Shown in pieces: positions 16,587 to 25,632 of a stretch of 64,000 bases of DNA (its first letter is position 1; the number at the start of each line of letters is the position of its first letter). The notes beneath the pieces were generated by a model that saw only the letters and a program-made list of their open reading frames with translations, made no database searches and was not told the DNA's origin. The position numbers were made by a program, and so were the translations under genes. This DNA is from Virgibacillus dokdonensis (GTDB lineage Bacteria > Bacillota > Bacilli > Bacillales > Amphibacillaceae), in assembly GCF_900166595.1 (NCBI RefSeq), contig NZ_LT745763.1, positions 2,538,986 to 2,602,985 on the forward strand, read 5' to 3'.

Positions 16587-17411
16587 TTACTTACCAATTT
16601 GTTTAAATGCTTCCGCTTGTTCTTTAATCCCTTTTTCTGCTGCAAATCGTTCTATACTAGAAGCTCCAAAAAAGCCAACAATCCCATCGACTCTTTTAAT
16701 CACATAAGCAGCATCCTCGGGCTCTGCAATTGGTCCACCATGACAAATCGCCATGATTTCAGGATTTACTGATCTACCTGCAGCAATTATTTTTTGAATA
16801 CGCTCCACAGCATCATCTAATGTTAACGCGGTTTGAGCGCCAATGGTTCCTTTTGTTGTTAAACCCATATGTGCTACTAATATATCTGCTCCAGCTGCTG
16901 CCATTCTTTTAGCCTGGTCTTCATCAAAGACATATGGAGTAGTTAACATATCAAGCTCATGTGCTTTACGAATCATATCTACCTCTAAATCGTACCCCAT
17001 TCCCGTTTCTTCCAAATTTTGACGAAAAACACCATCAATTAATCCGACAGTAGGAAAATTCTGTACTCCACTAAATCCTTGGTCTTTCAGTTGCTTTAAA
17101 AATACGTCCATGACACGAAATGGATCTGTTCCATTTACACCTGCTAAAACTGGCGTATCTTTAACAACTGGTAAAACTTCATTACCCATCTCTACGACGA
17201 TTTGATTAGCATCTCCATAGGAAAGAAGCCCAGCTAGAGAACCGCGACCTGCCATGCGATAACGTCCAGAATTATAAATGATCAACATGTCAGCGCCGCC
17301 AGCTTCACTGCTCTTAGCAGTAATCCCAGTACCAGCCCCTACTCCAAGTAAAACATTACCTTCATTTATTTGTTCATGAAATCGTTGTATAATTTCTTTT
17401 CTACTTAACAT
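16587..17411 (-). CDS. TIM-barrel protein of the PEP-hydrolase-like family (PF09370)
   Basis: Predicted cytoplasmic protein of 274 residues. The ATG at 17411 follows AAAGGAGAG. Family motifs are [77 protein letters not shown] and [16 protein letters not shown]. The family is annotated as phosphoenolpyruvate-hydrolase-like, but I know of no proven reaction. It starts one base after the UPF0261 gene. The two together have the same domain order as the plant resistance protein Tm-1, where they are fused. Function unknown. Confidence 0.85.
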
Positions 17412-17412
17412 G

Positions 17413-18639
17413 CTATTTCTCTCCTTTTCTCTTTTCAATTAATTGAATAAGTTTTTCGGCTGCTGCTTCTGCAAAAGCACGGTCATTAATTGCTTTTTCC
17501 AATTCAATTACTTGAACCTTCGTCCTGTCAACGTTTTCTTTTAGCGTTTGAAAAAGCATTTGATCTTCTTTTGGTCCATAGAATGGCTGACCCTCTACAT
17601 CTAAGCCTGATAATCCTTTTAATGGTAAAATTAAAGAAGTGTTCCCTTGTGCTAAGTTTAACTTTTTAGCTATAACTTCCCCAATGCGTTTGTTTTCATC
17701 TACATTTGTGCGCATCAACGTCACTGTTGGGTTATGTTTATAAAATTTGCGCCCAGTAAATTTTTCAGGAACCGACTCATAAGGTCCAAAGTTAACCATA
17801 TCGACTGCCCCAACAGAAACCACTTGTGGAATGTGATGTTTAGCCGCTGCCTCTAAACGATTCGGTCCAGCTGCTAAAACACCTCCAACTAACTCATCCG
17901 CCCATTCCGTAGTAGTAATATCTAGCACACCTTCAATAAACCCATCTTCAATCAGACTCTCCATTGTTTTACCGCCGATTCCAGTGGCATGAAAAACAAG
18001 CATTTCATAACCTTGCTTTTCCACATATGCCTTCGCATAATTAATACACGGCGTCGTTAAACCAAACATGGTAGCTGCTATAAGTGGTTTTTGTTCTATC
18101 TTTTGATTATTTTCAAATCGTAACATCCCTGCAATCGCAAACACAGCATTCGAAAATATTCTTGTAGAAATTTGATTTAAACCTGCTACATCAACGATAG
18201 ATGGGTACATCATTATATCGCTTGTCCCAACATAATGGGCTACATTACCAGAAGCAACTGTAGATACCATCACTTTTGGAACGCCAATTGGTAACGCTCG
18301 CATCCCAGGAGTTACAATGGAAGTTCCACCTGATCCTCCAAAAGAGAGTACCCCTGCAAATTTTCCTGCTTTATACAGTTGAGGTAATAAGATTTCCATA
18401 CCTTTAGATAATACAAGCGTAGCTTTCGCTCGATCTTCTGCAGCTACAATGGATTGTATGTCTTCCCCAGCAGCTTGAAAAATGGCTTCATTTGAAATAT
18501 CTGGCTGAAATTGTGGTCTGAATACACCAGTATGAATGGTTAAGGTTTTAAAACCTAATGACTCAATTAGATGTTTTACATACAAAAATTCTTCTCCTTT
18601 TGTATCAAACGTCCCTGCTAAAGCTATCGTTTTTGTCAA
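17413..18639 (-). CDS. UPF0261 / Tm-1-like ATP-binding domain protein
   Basis: Predicted cytoplasmic protein of 408 residues. A TTG start at 18639 is chosen since AAAGGAGAG lies 6 bases upstream and the family begins [16 protein letters not shown]. Later motifs are [58 protein letters not shown] and [14 protein letters not shown]. The length matches UPF0261 proteins. This domain of tomato Tm-1 binds ATP; the bacterial reaction is not established. It forms an operon with the TIM-barrel gene (one-base gap) and lies 252 bases downstream of a regulator containing the same TIM-barrel domain. Confidence 0.88.
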
Positions 18640-18891
18640 TGTACTCTCTCCTTTTTCGTGAATAAATAAACGGCACCATTTGTGAAAGTAAAAGCAGTAT
18701 TGATTTAAAATTACTTTTGCCCTCATCTATATGATACCGTTTTCGGAAGTGAAAATTAATGTCGTTATGTATGTTCATTTTGTCTTTATGTTCACTTTCG
18801 AACTTTTAACACGATCAAACGTTTATAATTTCCTGTAAAAAAACGTAAATGGGATTATAGTTCAAGTATTAACAATCACCCATAATATATA

Positions 18892-20094
18892 CTATTCCTT
18901 TAAAAATCGACTTGGAGACACTCCTTTTCTTTTTTTAAAAATCTTACTGAATTGTACGTAATTCGCATATCCTACCATTTCAGCAATTCTTGCTAAGGGT
19001 AATCTTTCCGTATGCATCATTTCAATAGCCCGATTTAATCGGAAATTGATGAGGTAGTCAACAAAAGAAACGCCTACTTCTTCTTTAAAAAGCGTGCTTA
19101 CATACGTTCTGGATAAGTTTAAAATATTTGCTATATCACTTAAGGTGATTTCTTCCATATAATGATTACTGATATAGTCTTTAATAAACTCTACATAGTC
19201 TTCTTTATTTGCAAATCCTTCCATTATTTTTTGAATAGAAGCTTCATATTGAATGTTAAACGTTTCTTTAAAGGATTTGGTTGTATTTTTAATTACTTGC
19301 TCAGCTGGAATGCGTTCAAACACGGACCCACCAATATACCCATTAATACCCGTACCATCGTACATAAATTGCACATCAATTGGACTATTGACAGGCCCAC
19401 CATAAACCATCTTAATTACATTCGGATTTAATTCATTACATGCTCGAAAAATATCTACGGCTAACTTCTTAGCACTCTGTAAAGACTGAATTTGTTTTGC
19501 GCCTAACACACCACCTGTTGTTAAACCTAAATGAACACAAATAATATCAGCCCCAGCATGAAGCATGTCGATAGCTTGCGATTGATTAAATACAAATGCT
19601 ACTGTAAATAAATCAAGTTGGTTTGCTATTCGGATGGCCTCTACTTCTCTAGAAAAAGTGATATCCTGTGATTCTAACGCCTCTCGAAATTGACCATCAA
19701 TTAAGCCGACAGTTGGATAGTTATTAATCCCAATAAAACCATATTGCTTAATACGAGAAATATAGTCTTCCATATGAAGCATAGGGTCGGTGGCAAATAA
19801 TCCAAAAATAACAGGAATTTTTGACATAACTGGCAACAACTCTTTTGAAGCAAAGTCCATAACTAATTCATTGCTACTCGCACAAGCTGTAAAACCAGCC
19901 AAGGAACTAACACCCATTTGGCGAAAACGCCCAGAACATAATGCTAAGATAAAATCAGCTCCGCCCTGCTCTGCATACTTAGCTGTAAGCCCAGATCCTG
20001 CTGCAACTCCAATCACATGCTTATTTGTTTTTATTTGTTGATTTAACTTTTCAAGCAAACGCCATTTATTATATACCATCCATTTACTCTCCAT
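18892..20094 (-). CDS. AraC-family regulator with an N-terminal PEP-hydrolase-like TIM barrel
   Basis: Fusion of two domains over 400 residues. Residues about 15-280 are a close relative of the enzyme-like protein at 16587-17411 ([59 protein letters not shown]). Residues about 300-400 are an AraC DNA-binding domain with both HTH motifs (LSDIANILNLSRTYVSTLFK and RIAEMVGYANYVQFSKIFKK). The barrel probably works as the ligand sensor, seeing the same metabolite that the downstream proteins handle. It is likely the activator of the UPF0261/TIM-barrel operon. The sensing role is inferred. Confidence 0.85.
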   Translation of the reverse strand: MESKWMVYNKWRLLEKLNQQIKTNKHVIGVAAGSGLTAKYAEQGGADFILALCSGRFRQMGVSSLAGFTACASSNELVMDFASKELLPVMSKIPVIFGLFATDPMLHMEDYISRIKQYGFIGINNYPTVGLIDGQFREALESQDITFSREVEAIRIANQLDLFTVAFVFNQSQAIDMLHAGADIICVHLGLTTGGVLGAKQIQSLQSAKKLAVDIFRACNELNPNVIKMVYGGPVNSPIDVQFMYDGTGINGYIGGSVFERIPAEQVIKNTTKSFKETFNIQYEASIQKIMEGFANKEDYVEFIKDYISNHYMEEITLSDIANILNLSRTYVSTLFKEEVGVSFVDYLINFRLNRAIEMMHTERLPLARIAEMVGYANYVQFSKIFKKRKGVSPSRFLKE

Positions 20095-23449: not shown

Positions 23450-23836
23450 TTATTCGGTTAAAAGTGGGTAATATCCTTCTTTTGTATGTGTTTCGGTTCC
23501 TACTAGAGGAGGATTAAAAACACAGACCATGCGCATTTGTGTTTTTGCACGAAGCTCATGTTTATCATTTTCGTTTAATAGATACATAGTGCCTGGCTTC
23601 AGGTTATATACTTCACCAGTTTCCAGCTTTTCTATCTCACCTTCCCCCTCAATGCAATAAACCGCTTCAATATGATTTTTATACCAGAAGAAATTGGTCG
23701 TTCCTGCTTTAATTATCGTATCATTTAAACTAAAACCTACATTATCTTTCTTCATGATAAAACGGCGACTCGTCCAATTGTTACCCGATGTTTCATCTCG
23801 AGTGCCAATGATATCGTCTAGTGATTTAACAATCAT
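23450..23836 (-). CDS. ectC: L-ectoine synthase
   Basis: Cyclises N-gamma-acetyl-diaminobutyrate to the osmoprotectant ectoine. The protein has 128 residues, the family length. It shows MIVKSLDDIIGTRDETSGNNW, the cupin core with FFWYKNHIEAVYCIEGEGEI and the GTMYLLNENDKHELRA strand holding metal-binding His/Glu residues, and ends in KEGYYPLL. It follows ectB with a 17-base gap, as in the usual ectABC operon, and is its last gene. Confidence 0.96.
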   Translation of the reverse strand: MIVKSLDDIIGTRDETSGNNWTSRRFIMKKDNVGFSLNDTIIKAGTTNFFWYKNHIEAVYCIEGEGEIEKLETGEVYNLKPGTMYLLNENDKHELRAKTQMRMVCVFNPPLVGTETHTKEGYYPLLTE

Positions 23837-23853
23837 GCAAATATCTCCTTTAT

Positions 23854-25143
23854 TTATCCTTTAATTTTTAACACCTGTTCAATGCTTACTTCTAAAATAT
23901 CAAACCCTTGGTTGATCCCCGCTTCATCAATAGTTAACGGTGGTAGAAACTTGACAACTTCATCATCTGGTCCAGATGTTTCTATAATTAAACCAATTTC
24001 AAAAGCTTCCTTACAAACGGCTGACGCAAGTTCATTTTTCTCCATGGCAATCCCTTGCATCAGTCCTCTCCCACGAGCTTCCGCTTTTAATGATGGGAAT
24101 TTTTCAATAATATGATCTATACGTTTTTTCATGACCTTACTTTTCCGATGAATAGACTTTGAAAATCCCTCATCCTTCCAAAATTCCGTTAAAGCTTCTG
24201 TTGCTGCAATGAACGCTAAATTATTACCCCGGAATGTTCCGTTATGCTCCCCTGGTTCCCATTGATCATATTCTGGTTTGATTAAAGTAATTGCCATTGG
24301 AAGTCCAATACCACCAATTGATTTTGACATACACACTATATCTGGTATGATACCAGCTAGCTCAAAGCTGAAAAAAGTTCCTGTTCTCCCACATCCAGCT
24401 TGAACATCGTCTACAATTAATAAAATATCCCAACGATCACAAATTAAAGCAACCTTTTGCAGCCATTCCGTGCTAGCCGCATTAATGCCTCCTTCGCCTT
24501 GGACAGTTTCAAGAATAATTGCTGCAGGCAAAGCGACGCCGCTCCCGCTATCTTCTAAAAATCGTTCCAAGTAAGCAATTGAATCCTGATCATCCACATA
24601 TTCGTCAAACGGCATAGAAACACTGTGATGCAGTGGTATCCCGGCCCCATGACGTTTAAATGAATTTCCTGTCACCGACAGCGATCCAATTGTCATTCCA
24701 TGAAAAGCATTCGTAAAGCTTATTACTGTATCACGTCCAGTTACTTTTCTAGCTATCTTCAATGCACTTTCAACTGTATTCGTTCCAGTAGGGCCTGGAA
24801 ACATCACTTTATAATCCATATTTCGTGGTTTTAGAATGGTCTTATAAAAGGTTTGTAAAAATTCTTTACGAGGTGTCGTCCCCATATCCAAACTATGAAT
24901 AATATTATCATTTTGAATATAAGTGATTAGCTTCTGTTGCATCTTTTCATGGTTATGACCATAATTTAAAGCACCAGCACCTGCAAAAAAATCAATATAC
25001 ATATTTCCATCTATATCCCAAAGTTTATGGCCTTTTGCTTTTTCAAAAATCGTCGGCCATCCTCTGCTATAAGTTCTTACTGCTGATTCTAATTCTTCAA
25101 ATGCTTGCATTGGGCTATTTTTTACAACTGTTGTAGTCACCAA
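23854..25143 (-). CDS. ectB: Diaminobutyrate-2-oxoglutarate transaminase
   Basis: PLP aminotransferase that makes L-2,4-diaminobutyrate from aspartate semialdehyde. The 429-residue length is typical. Motifs include [15 protein letters not shown], the cofactor-binding [17 protein letters not shown] and [32 protein letters not shown], and the Schiff-base lysine in [15 protein letters not shown]. It lies 9 bases after ectA and 17 before ectC. Confidence 0.96.
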
Positions 25144-25152
25144 ATCATCCTT

Positions 25153-25632
25153 TTATTTGTTATTTTCCCTTGGAATAGGGCCAATCTTATACAACTGTTC
25201 ATCTTCATGTCCTGTTCGTGGAAAATCGACGGAAGTATAGTAATTACCAACAACACATTCTGTATTTAGTTTTTTAGCTAAGCCCATAAATAAATACTGT
25301 GAGGGCAAGTTAGAAGGTGTTACCGTTGCCTCAACAAACTGAATTTCTGCTAACTGCTTTCGTTCTAGCAGTTCAAATAACATACGTGTCGCTAGACCCT
25401 TCCCACGCTGTGAAGTATCAACAGCAACTTGCCAAACAAATAATGTATTCGGTTTATTCGGATGGATAAACCCGGATATAAACCCAACCACTTCTCCCTC
25501 TTCCTCAACGATGATAGATGTTTCAGAAAACATATCACACCATAGAAGATAACTATAAGAAGAGTTTAAATCCAGATTATCAATTTGATGAATTAAATCC
25601 CAGACTGCTGCCCCATCACCTTTTGTAGGCAT
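25153..25632 (-). CDS. ectA: Diaminobutyrate acetyltransferase (5' end doubtful)
   Basis: GNAT acetyltransferase of the ectoine pathway. The body is typical: MPTKGDGAAVWDLIHQID, DLNSSYSYLLWCDMF, the acetyl-CoA loop VDTSQRGKGLATRMLFELL, and PSNLPSQYLFMGLAKKL. The ATG at 25632 has no ribosome site and cuts the usual N-terminus. The frame stays open upstream to about 25720 and encodes TIQTAIRTNSVKSKVEQELT then FR without any ATG, GTG or TTG. A GTG at 25703 behind AAGGGAG is out of phase by one base. One lost A near 25697-25700 would explain this and restore about 183 residues. Confidence 0.88.
   Translation of the reverse strand: MPTKGDGAAVWDLIHQIDNLDLNSSYSYLLWCDMFSETSIIVEEEGEVVGFISGFIHPNKPNTLFVWQVAVDTSQRGKGLATRMLFELLERKQLAEIQFVEATVTPSNLPSQYLFMGLAKKLNTECVVGNYYTSVDFPRTGHEDEQLYKIGPIPRENNK

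Follow-up and report, generated by a model that had tools for sequence, protein, structure and literature searches.

Tm-1 is a virus-resistance protein of tomato. In the passages of Yang et al. (2016; PMC5028733) on its origin, its two parts, UPF0261 and TBST (= PF09370), are described as co-evolving and as mostly encoded separately in bacteria, archaea and fungi, with Tm-1 arising from their fusion in streptophytes; of the 504 TBST-bearing bacterial genomes, 491 also hold UPF0261, and among the sequenced land plant genomes examined, nearly all have Tm-1-like genes. These passages name no reaction for the pair, nor do they treat an AraC fusion, cre-like sites or a conservation difference between enzyme and regulator copies. 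An excerpt of another study has COG5441-COG5564 among its listed profile pairs in fungi (PMC8963296). A split Tm-1 in bacteria is not a new discovery, the split pair itself being already in Yang et al. We describe here such a pair in a window of 64,000 nucleotides of Virgibacillus dokdonensis (GCF_900166595.1, contig NZ_LT745763.1, positions 2,538,986 to 2,602,985), where it is preceded by an AraC-type regulator that itself contains a PF09370 barrel. We tentatively propose that the three genes may form a unit of a kinase followed by a lyase, whose intermediate would be read by a disabled lyase relative in the regulator, under CcpA control. The combination of a predicted kinase, a phosphate-binding-type barrel, an apparently disabled barrel in a regulator and predicted carbon catabolite control was absent from the openly licensed literature that we found.

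The nearest described chemistry is that of MarK (Saro_1862), a UPF0261 protein (PDB 9mpy) that is reportedly the subject of Hall et al. 2025. The entry 9mpy, a Novosphingobium UPF0261 protein with acetovanillone bound, is probably this published acetovanillone kinase, and MarK has been termed a single-component acetovanillone kinase (PMC13101465). The window protein has about 30% identity to the MarK-like protein compared (locus L125) and stands on a separate branch of the tree, which puts it outside the MarK subfamily. The operon of L125 includes carboxylase and phosphatase genes, whereas the window unit consists of three genes without these; in the Sphingobium relative, genes for a carboxylase and a HAD protein are present and PF09370 is missing from the stretch seen. 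Kinase activity of the window UPF0261 is predicted from this distant relative, and other divergent UPF0261 genes adjoin genes for class II aldolase, HAD phosphatase-like proteins and phosphotransferases. A sequence-only reading of this DNA had held that the bacterial biochemistry was not established and that the locus was its best candidate for an undescribed pathway. For UPF0261, MarK has published kinase chemistry, and one half of the candidate pathway now has a lead; for the pair, the statement stood, as we found in the openly licensed literature no published enzyme function, assigned function or native role of UPF0261 with PF09370.

Two further systems are close in logic. Inositol catabolism uses IolG, IolE, IolB, IolC and IolJ, which are an oxidoreductase, an isomerase-like TIM barrel, a cupin, a kinase and a lyase. 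Operons of other lineages related to the window unit resemble this series of steps, a likeness in logic and not membership: the kinase, lyase and cupin belong to other families, and the window unit has the predicted kinase and lyase only. NrtR and MocR/GabR are regulators built from altered enzymes, in which an altered enzyme copy senses the ligand for a DNA-binding protein, as seems to be the case in the window regulator; their folds differ, and the PF09370 sensor barrel occurs with two unrelated output domains.

The three-gene unit

In the window, all three genes lie on the minus strand and are transcribed in the order AraC fusion, UPF0261, PF09370.

18892 to 20094, minus strand: AraC-type regulator with an N-terminal PF09370 TIM barrel, 400 amino acids, predicted sensor (Pfam)
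18646 to 18652, minus strand: AGGAGAG ribosome-binding site of UPF0261
17413 to 18639, minus strand: UPF0261 / Tm-1-like protein, 408 amino acids, TTG start, predicted kinase (Pfam, structure model, start-site comparison)
17419 to 17425, minus strand: AGGAGAG ribosome-binding site of PF09370, within the 3' end of UPF0261
16587 to 17411, minus strand: standalone PF09370 TIM barrel, 274 amino acids, ATG start, predicted to act on the phosphorylated product (Pfam, match to 2p10)

Pfam matched PF09370 across the full length of frame 16587-17438 (428 bits), and the standalone protein scored 373 bits against 2p10; the full-length profile and the 2p10 fold both assign it to the family. Frame 17413-18726 gave 206 bits for the N-terminal and 323 bits for the C-terminal domain of UPF0261, a protein that belongs to its family by PF06792 and PF23189 across the full length and by the Tm-1 fold. 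Its structure model (pLDDT 95.7) matches Tm-1 and 9mpy, and ATP binding is suggested solely by the database name "Tm-1-like ATP-binding domain." In the regulator, PF09370 occupies residues 13-277 (346 bits), and the AraC-type helix-turn-helix (HTH) C-terminal to the barrel (HTH_18, 69.5 bits; HTH_AraC in two stretches) places the protein in the AraC family. With E-values of 1e-61 to 1e-128 across the unit, chance is ruled out for these matches. The closest named relative of the regulator is a Virgibacillus pantothenticus protein (82%).

The UPF0261 gene most likely starts at TTG 18639 rather than at the open-frame ATG 18726, because AGGAGAG lies upstream and the start codon aligns in six same-genus genomes (TTG in five, ATG in one). 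The PF09370 gene likely starts at ATG 17411, behind its own AGGAGAG site and one base beyond the UPF0261 stop codon (17413-17415). Pfam and the stop and start positions thus confirm what the sequence-only reading had seen, namely, UPF0261 followed one base later by PF09370, as two genes in the domain order of Tm-1.

Linkage of UPF0261 and PF09370

Across 109 fetched loci, counted without de-duplication, UPF0261 lies directly before PF09370 on the same strand in 95, and the spacing between the two genes has a median of 15 bases and is no more than 5 bases in 40 cases. Full-length PF09370 was present in 21 of 299 genomes of the same class, all 21 of which hold UPF0261; one more genome (G064) has a divergent UPF0261 only, and 7 others have weak or partial PF09370 matches. 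For high-GC loci, in which antisense open reading frames had spoiled simpler gene calls, genes were called with a codon-trained caller and compared by eye with one annotated record.

This adjacency and the close spacing would also suit an obligate complex of both proteins that carries out a single ATP-dependent reaction, UPF0261 giving the ATP and PF09370 the substrate site, with no free phosphorylated intermediate and with a sensor that reads the substrate; TrpA, among the nearest folds of the barrel, acts in a two-protein complex. The plant fusion and the co-evolution of the halves, as given in the passages cited from PMC5028733, point the same way. We nevertheless consider such a complex unlikely, since UPF0261 is also found without PF09370, including in G064, and 9mpy alone binds a substrate-like ligand.

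Several loci show the pair, or UPF0261, in other company. In L080 (17170-20275) and L086 (16690-19924), a second UPF0261 gene has xylose-isomerase-like and creatininase-family genes in place of PF09370, as though one partner enzyme had replaced another, and a creatininase-family gene likewise adjoins UPF0261 in Thermus. In Thermomicrobium and a relative (L003:7995-17161, L011), the pair is clustered with two genes resembling halves of a dikinase of the phosphoenolpyruvate (PEP)-synthase/rifampin-phosphotransferase type, which recall the two-component kinase HpeHI as it appears in an excerpt of PMC12167813. In Vibrio alginolyticus, a plasmid typed as conjugative has the pair between integrase genes, accompanied only by a TetR-type and a DUF1097 gene (L010:5916-9408), and the module can therefore travel by itself. 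Brevibacillus centrosporus has a degraded second copy (L045:7551-10756), with the regulator in two open frames and with the UPF0261 N-terminal domain plus 39 residues of the C-terminal domain running into PF09370, while another contig of the same strain (L030) holds an intact pair with sugar ABC genes.

Promoter and operon neighbours

Of 29 distinct AraC fusions, 24 immediately precede UPF0261 on the same strand, three lie directly downstream of PF09370, one stands one gene downstream of PF09370 and one is in a locus too short to tell, so that the fusion adjoins the pair in 28 of the 29 cases. Where both flanks were seen, 11 of 13 AraC-linked units are three genes long and no more, there being no further gene in the same orientation within 100 base pairs. 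Two features stand out in the promoter of the window unit.

18732 to 18745, minus strand: cre-like site CGAAAACGGTATCA, with one mismatch to TGWAANCGNTNWCA (motif search)
18751 to 18784, minus strand: conserved block upstream of the cre-like site, candidate AraC operator (from the window and six same-genus genomes)

We take TGWAANCGNTNWCA to be the CcpA cre consensus. A de novo search of 24 non-redundant AraC-linked promoters returned a motif of 20 bases that reads as this sequence and reaches 14.3 bits, versus 9.7-9.9 in three shuffled sets. The cre-like site has at most one mismatch in 12 of these 24 promoters, two mismatches in 8 and three or four in 4. With at most one mismatch allowed, it turned up in 1.8% of shuffles and, elsewhere in these loci, in 6 of 237 intergenic regions (Fisher p 2e-10). 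At that threshold, it was found in none of the three sigma-54-linked promoters and was missing from 19 of 21 other low-GC promoters, the remaining two (L075, L182) both having an AraC fusion nearby. The genome has ccpA (514.6 bits; cut-off 442) and, with the cre-like site in the promoter, the unit is at the sequence level a predicted member of the CcpA regulon. Because the site recurs in half of the AraC-linked promoters, the unit looks catabolic, which we regard as probable. The conserved block at 18751-18784 is the best candidate place for the AraC operator. An inverted repeat, TCGAAAGTGAA...TTCACTTCCGA (18791-18801 and 18743-18753), was considered as the operator and dropped for the cre-like site and the conserved block; in 34 promoters, with one substitution allowed, both arms occurred only in the window locus and a 98% relative, one arm in one 81% relative and a single chance-like arm in two others. 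A scan for the sigma-70 consensus was uninformative (12 found, 14.9 expected).

A survey of neighbours in other genomes, which the sequence-only reading had suggested, covered 75 non-redundant loci from named genomes and plasmids; families were picked after viewing the loci, and p-values are uncorrected. Four families were enriched in the operons: a small cupin, present in 28 loci with an odds ratio of 22; Gfo/Idh/MocA oxidoreductases, in 11 loci with a ratio of 12.5; MalF/G-type sugar permeases, in 7 with a ratio of 6; and xylose-isomerase-like proteins, in 9 with a ratio of 3.5 (p 0.004). The pair stood alone in 30 operons. No operon enrichment was found in these loci for LIV-type permeases, SDR, GntR, GlcD-like, Rbs-type permease and creatininase genes. 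The small cupin had no NCBIfam family at E 1e-10, and its solved relatives are assorted cupins. As to the substrate class, these neighbours point to sugars, sugar acids or cyclitols. At L161 and L162 (upstream) and at L164 and L165 (downstream), an argininosuccinate-synthase gene and an argininosuccinate-lyase-sized gene adjoin the module; the synthase was checked by Pfam in L164 and falls in the same cluster in the others. The arrangement is seen in two different families and may be due to chance.

The operons with the pair alone, and the Vibrio plasmid that couples it to TetR-type and DUF1097 genes, could instead reflect the clearing of a toxic or damaged metabolite, with a regulator that senses the toxic compound rather than a carbon source. 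Such a role would also be in line with acetovanillone, the ligand in 9mpy, being a phenol and with the presence of Tm-1-like genes in land plants (in the cited passages of PMC5028733). We hold it to be quite unlikely given that the cre-like sites of the AraC-linked promoters and the sugar-catabolism neighbours of other lineages fit carbon use.

The PF09370 barrel as predicted enzyme and sensor

After its own family (2p10), the nearest folds of the regulator's PF09370 barrel are the phosphate-binding TIM barrels IGPS and TrpA; a search of NCBIfam at E 0.01 matched PF09370 to no family. That PF09370 is a phosphoenolpyruvate or phosphonopyruvate hydrolase and the unit a branch of PEP or phosphonate metabolism, as the Pfam name (PEP_hydrolase) and the title of 2p10 suggest, is very unlikely, since this title reads "putative," IGPS and TrpA come next in fold similarity and no phosphonate-metabolism family was among the neighbour families tested, in a survey with no search aimed at one.

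The proposed kinase and lyase unit with its own sensor draws on the pattern of conservation in the barrel. Among 101 standalone copies, 109 positions are at least 97% invariant, of which 57 are conserved in 90% or more of 46 regulators. A larger comparison took in 233 standalone, 142 AraC and 4 sigma-54-type copies, with only identical sequences removed; standalone sets were chosen by score to the window protein (>150 bits for locus genes), and divergent copies, e.g., those of Bradyrhizobium at 34-39% identity, are under-represented. At least 141 of the 142 AraC copies and all four sigma-54-type copies retain the phosphate-loop residues G225, G226, G249, S251, E254 and R255, together with five polar residues (R52, N69, D96, N118 and E143); K33, D41, E78, E134 and H181 are retained in at least 136 AraC copies, with variation among the four sigma-54-type copies. 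Y46, Y160 and H224, kept in the 233 standalone copies, are L, F and Y in every AraC and sigma-54-type copy; moreover, Q117 is replaced by N in 136 and N47 by S in 101 of the 142 AraC copies. We infer that the changed residues are catalytic because they are placed at strand ends. The regulator's barrel is a changed, probably inactive relative of the PF09370 enzyme, and the conservation pattern supports related ligands for enzyme and sensor, where the sequence-only reading had supposed a shared one.

In a tree, 39 standalone, 30 AraC and 4 sigma-54-type copies separate with one change each (branch support 100/100, 97/95 and 89/96, respectively), the regulators and the standalone copies being two sides of one branch with an arbitrary root; one sigma-54 row (L082) is very long. 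This separate grouping means that the regulator did not arise by recent copying of the enzyme beside it, and that one sensor barrel was joined to two unrelated outputs, sigma-54/Fis and AraC. The view that the sensor is the same TIM barrel as the enzyme thus held for the family, whereas the sensor proved to be of a separate lineage with fixed strand-end changes and not a copy of the neighbouring enzyme. The sigma-54/Fis output was confirmed by Pfam in three of the four sigma-54-type copies, the fourth being L157. Those three activators (L156, L082, L046) also lie next to the gene pair and have the same kind of sensor barrel, its three residues replaced as in the AraC copies, with a sigma-54 AAA+/Fis output where the window regulator has an AraC output.

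Upstream of the regulator, an amj-like gene (PF10997; 20320-21119, minus strand) is in two frames relative to a 271-residue same-genus protein, a frameshift either in the genome or in the assembly. Three genes at 23450-25632 (minus strand) resemble EctC, EctB and EctA of ectoine synthesis, by eye from the translations.

A model for the unit

The proposed model is based on the gene order, the domains, the predicted folds, the conservation pattern, the separate lineage of the regulator and the enrichment of the cre-like site. UPF0261 would phosphorylate a hydroxylated carbon compound using ATP, and the PF09370 protein would bind the phosphorylated product through the phosphate site at the barrel end and then cleave it. 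The AraC fusion would sense the same phosphorylated intermediate through its changed, probably inactive PF09370 barrel and then switch the unit on, and CcpA would keep the unit off during the supply of a preferred carbon source via the cre-like site at 18732-18745. Cleavage by PF09370, a phosphorylated ligand of the sensor and activation by the AraC protein are what we infer beyond the observations. The model stands or falls with three steps: UPF0261 must phosphorylate the compound, PF09370 must use the product, and the regulator must bind this same product.

A wider version of the model, which we put forward as doubtful, is that UPF0261 and PF09370 constitute a new two-step catabolic module of a kinase and then a retro-aldol-type lyase of the IGPS/TrpA fold, whose phosphorylated intermediate would be read by an ancient disabled lyase relative that had acquired outputs of both the sigma-54 and the AraC kind. 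Plant Tm-1 would then have as its native function these two steps within a single fused chain.

Both halves of the pair are widespread in bacteria, and Tm-1-like genes are near-universal in the land plants examined, according to the passages cited from PMC5028733. In PF09370, an enzyme family seems to have been recruited as a sensor for two kinds of output domain, and the MarK precedent is a lead on the chemistry of the UPF0261 half. In a bacterial unit that is self-contained and has a matching sensor of its own, the role of the pair becomes testable, as the inducer of the operon should lead to the substrate.
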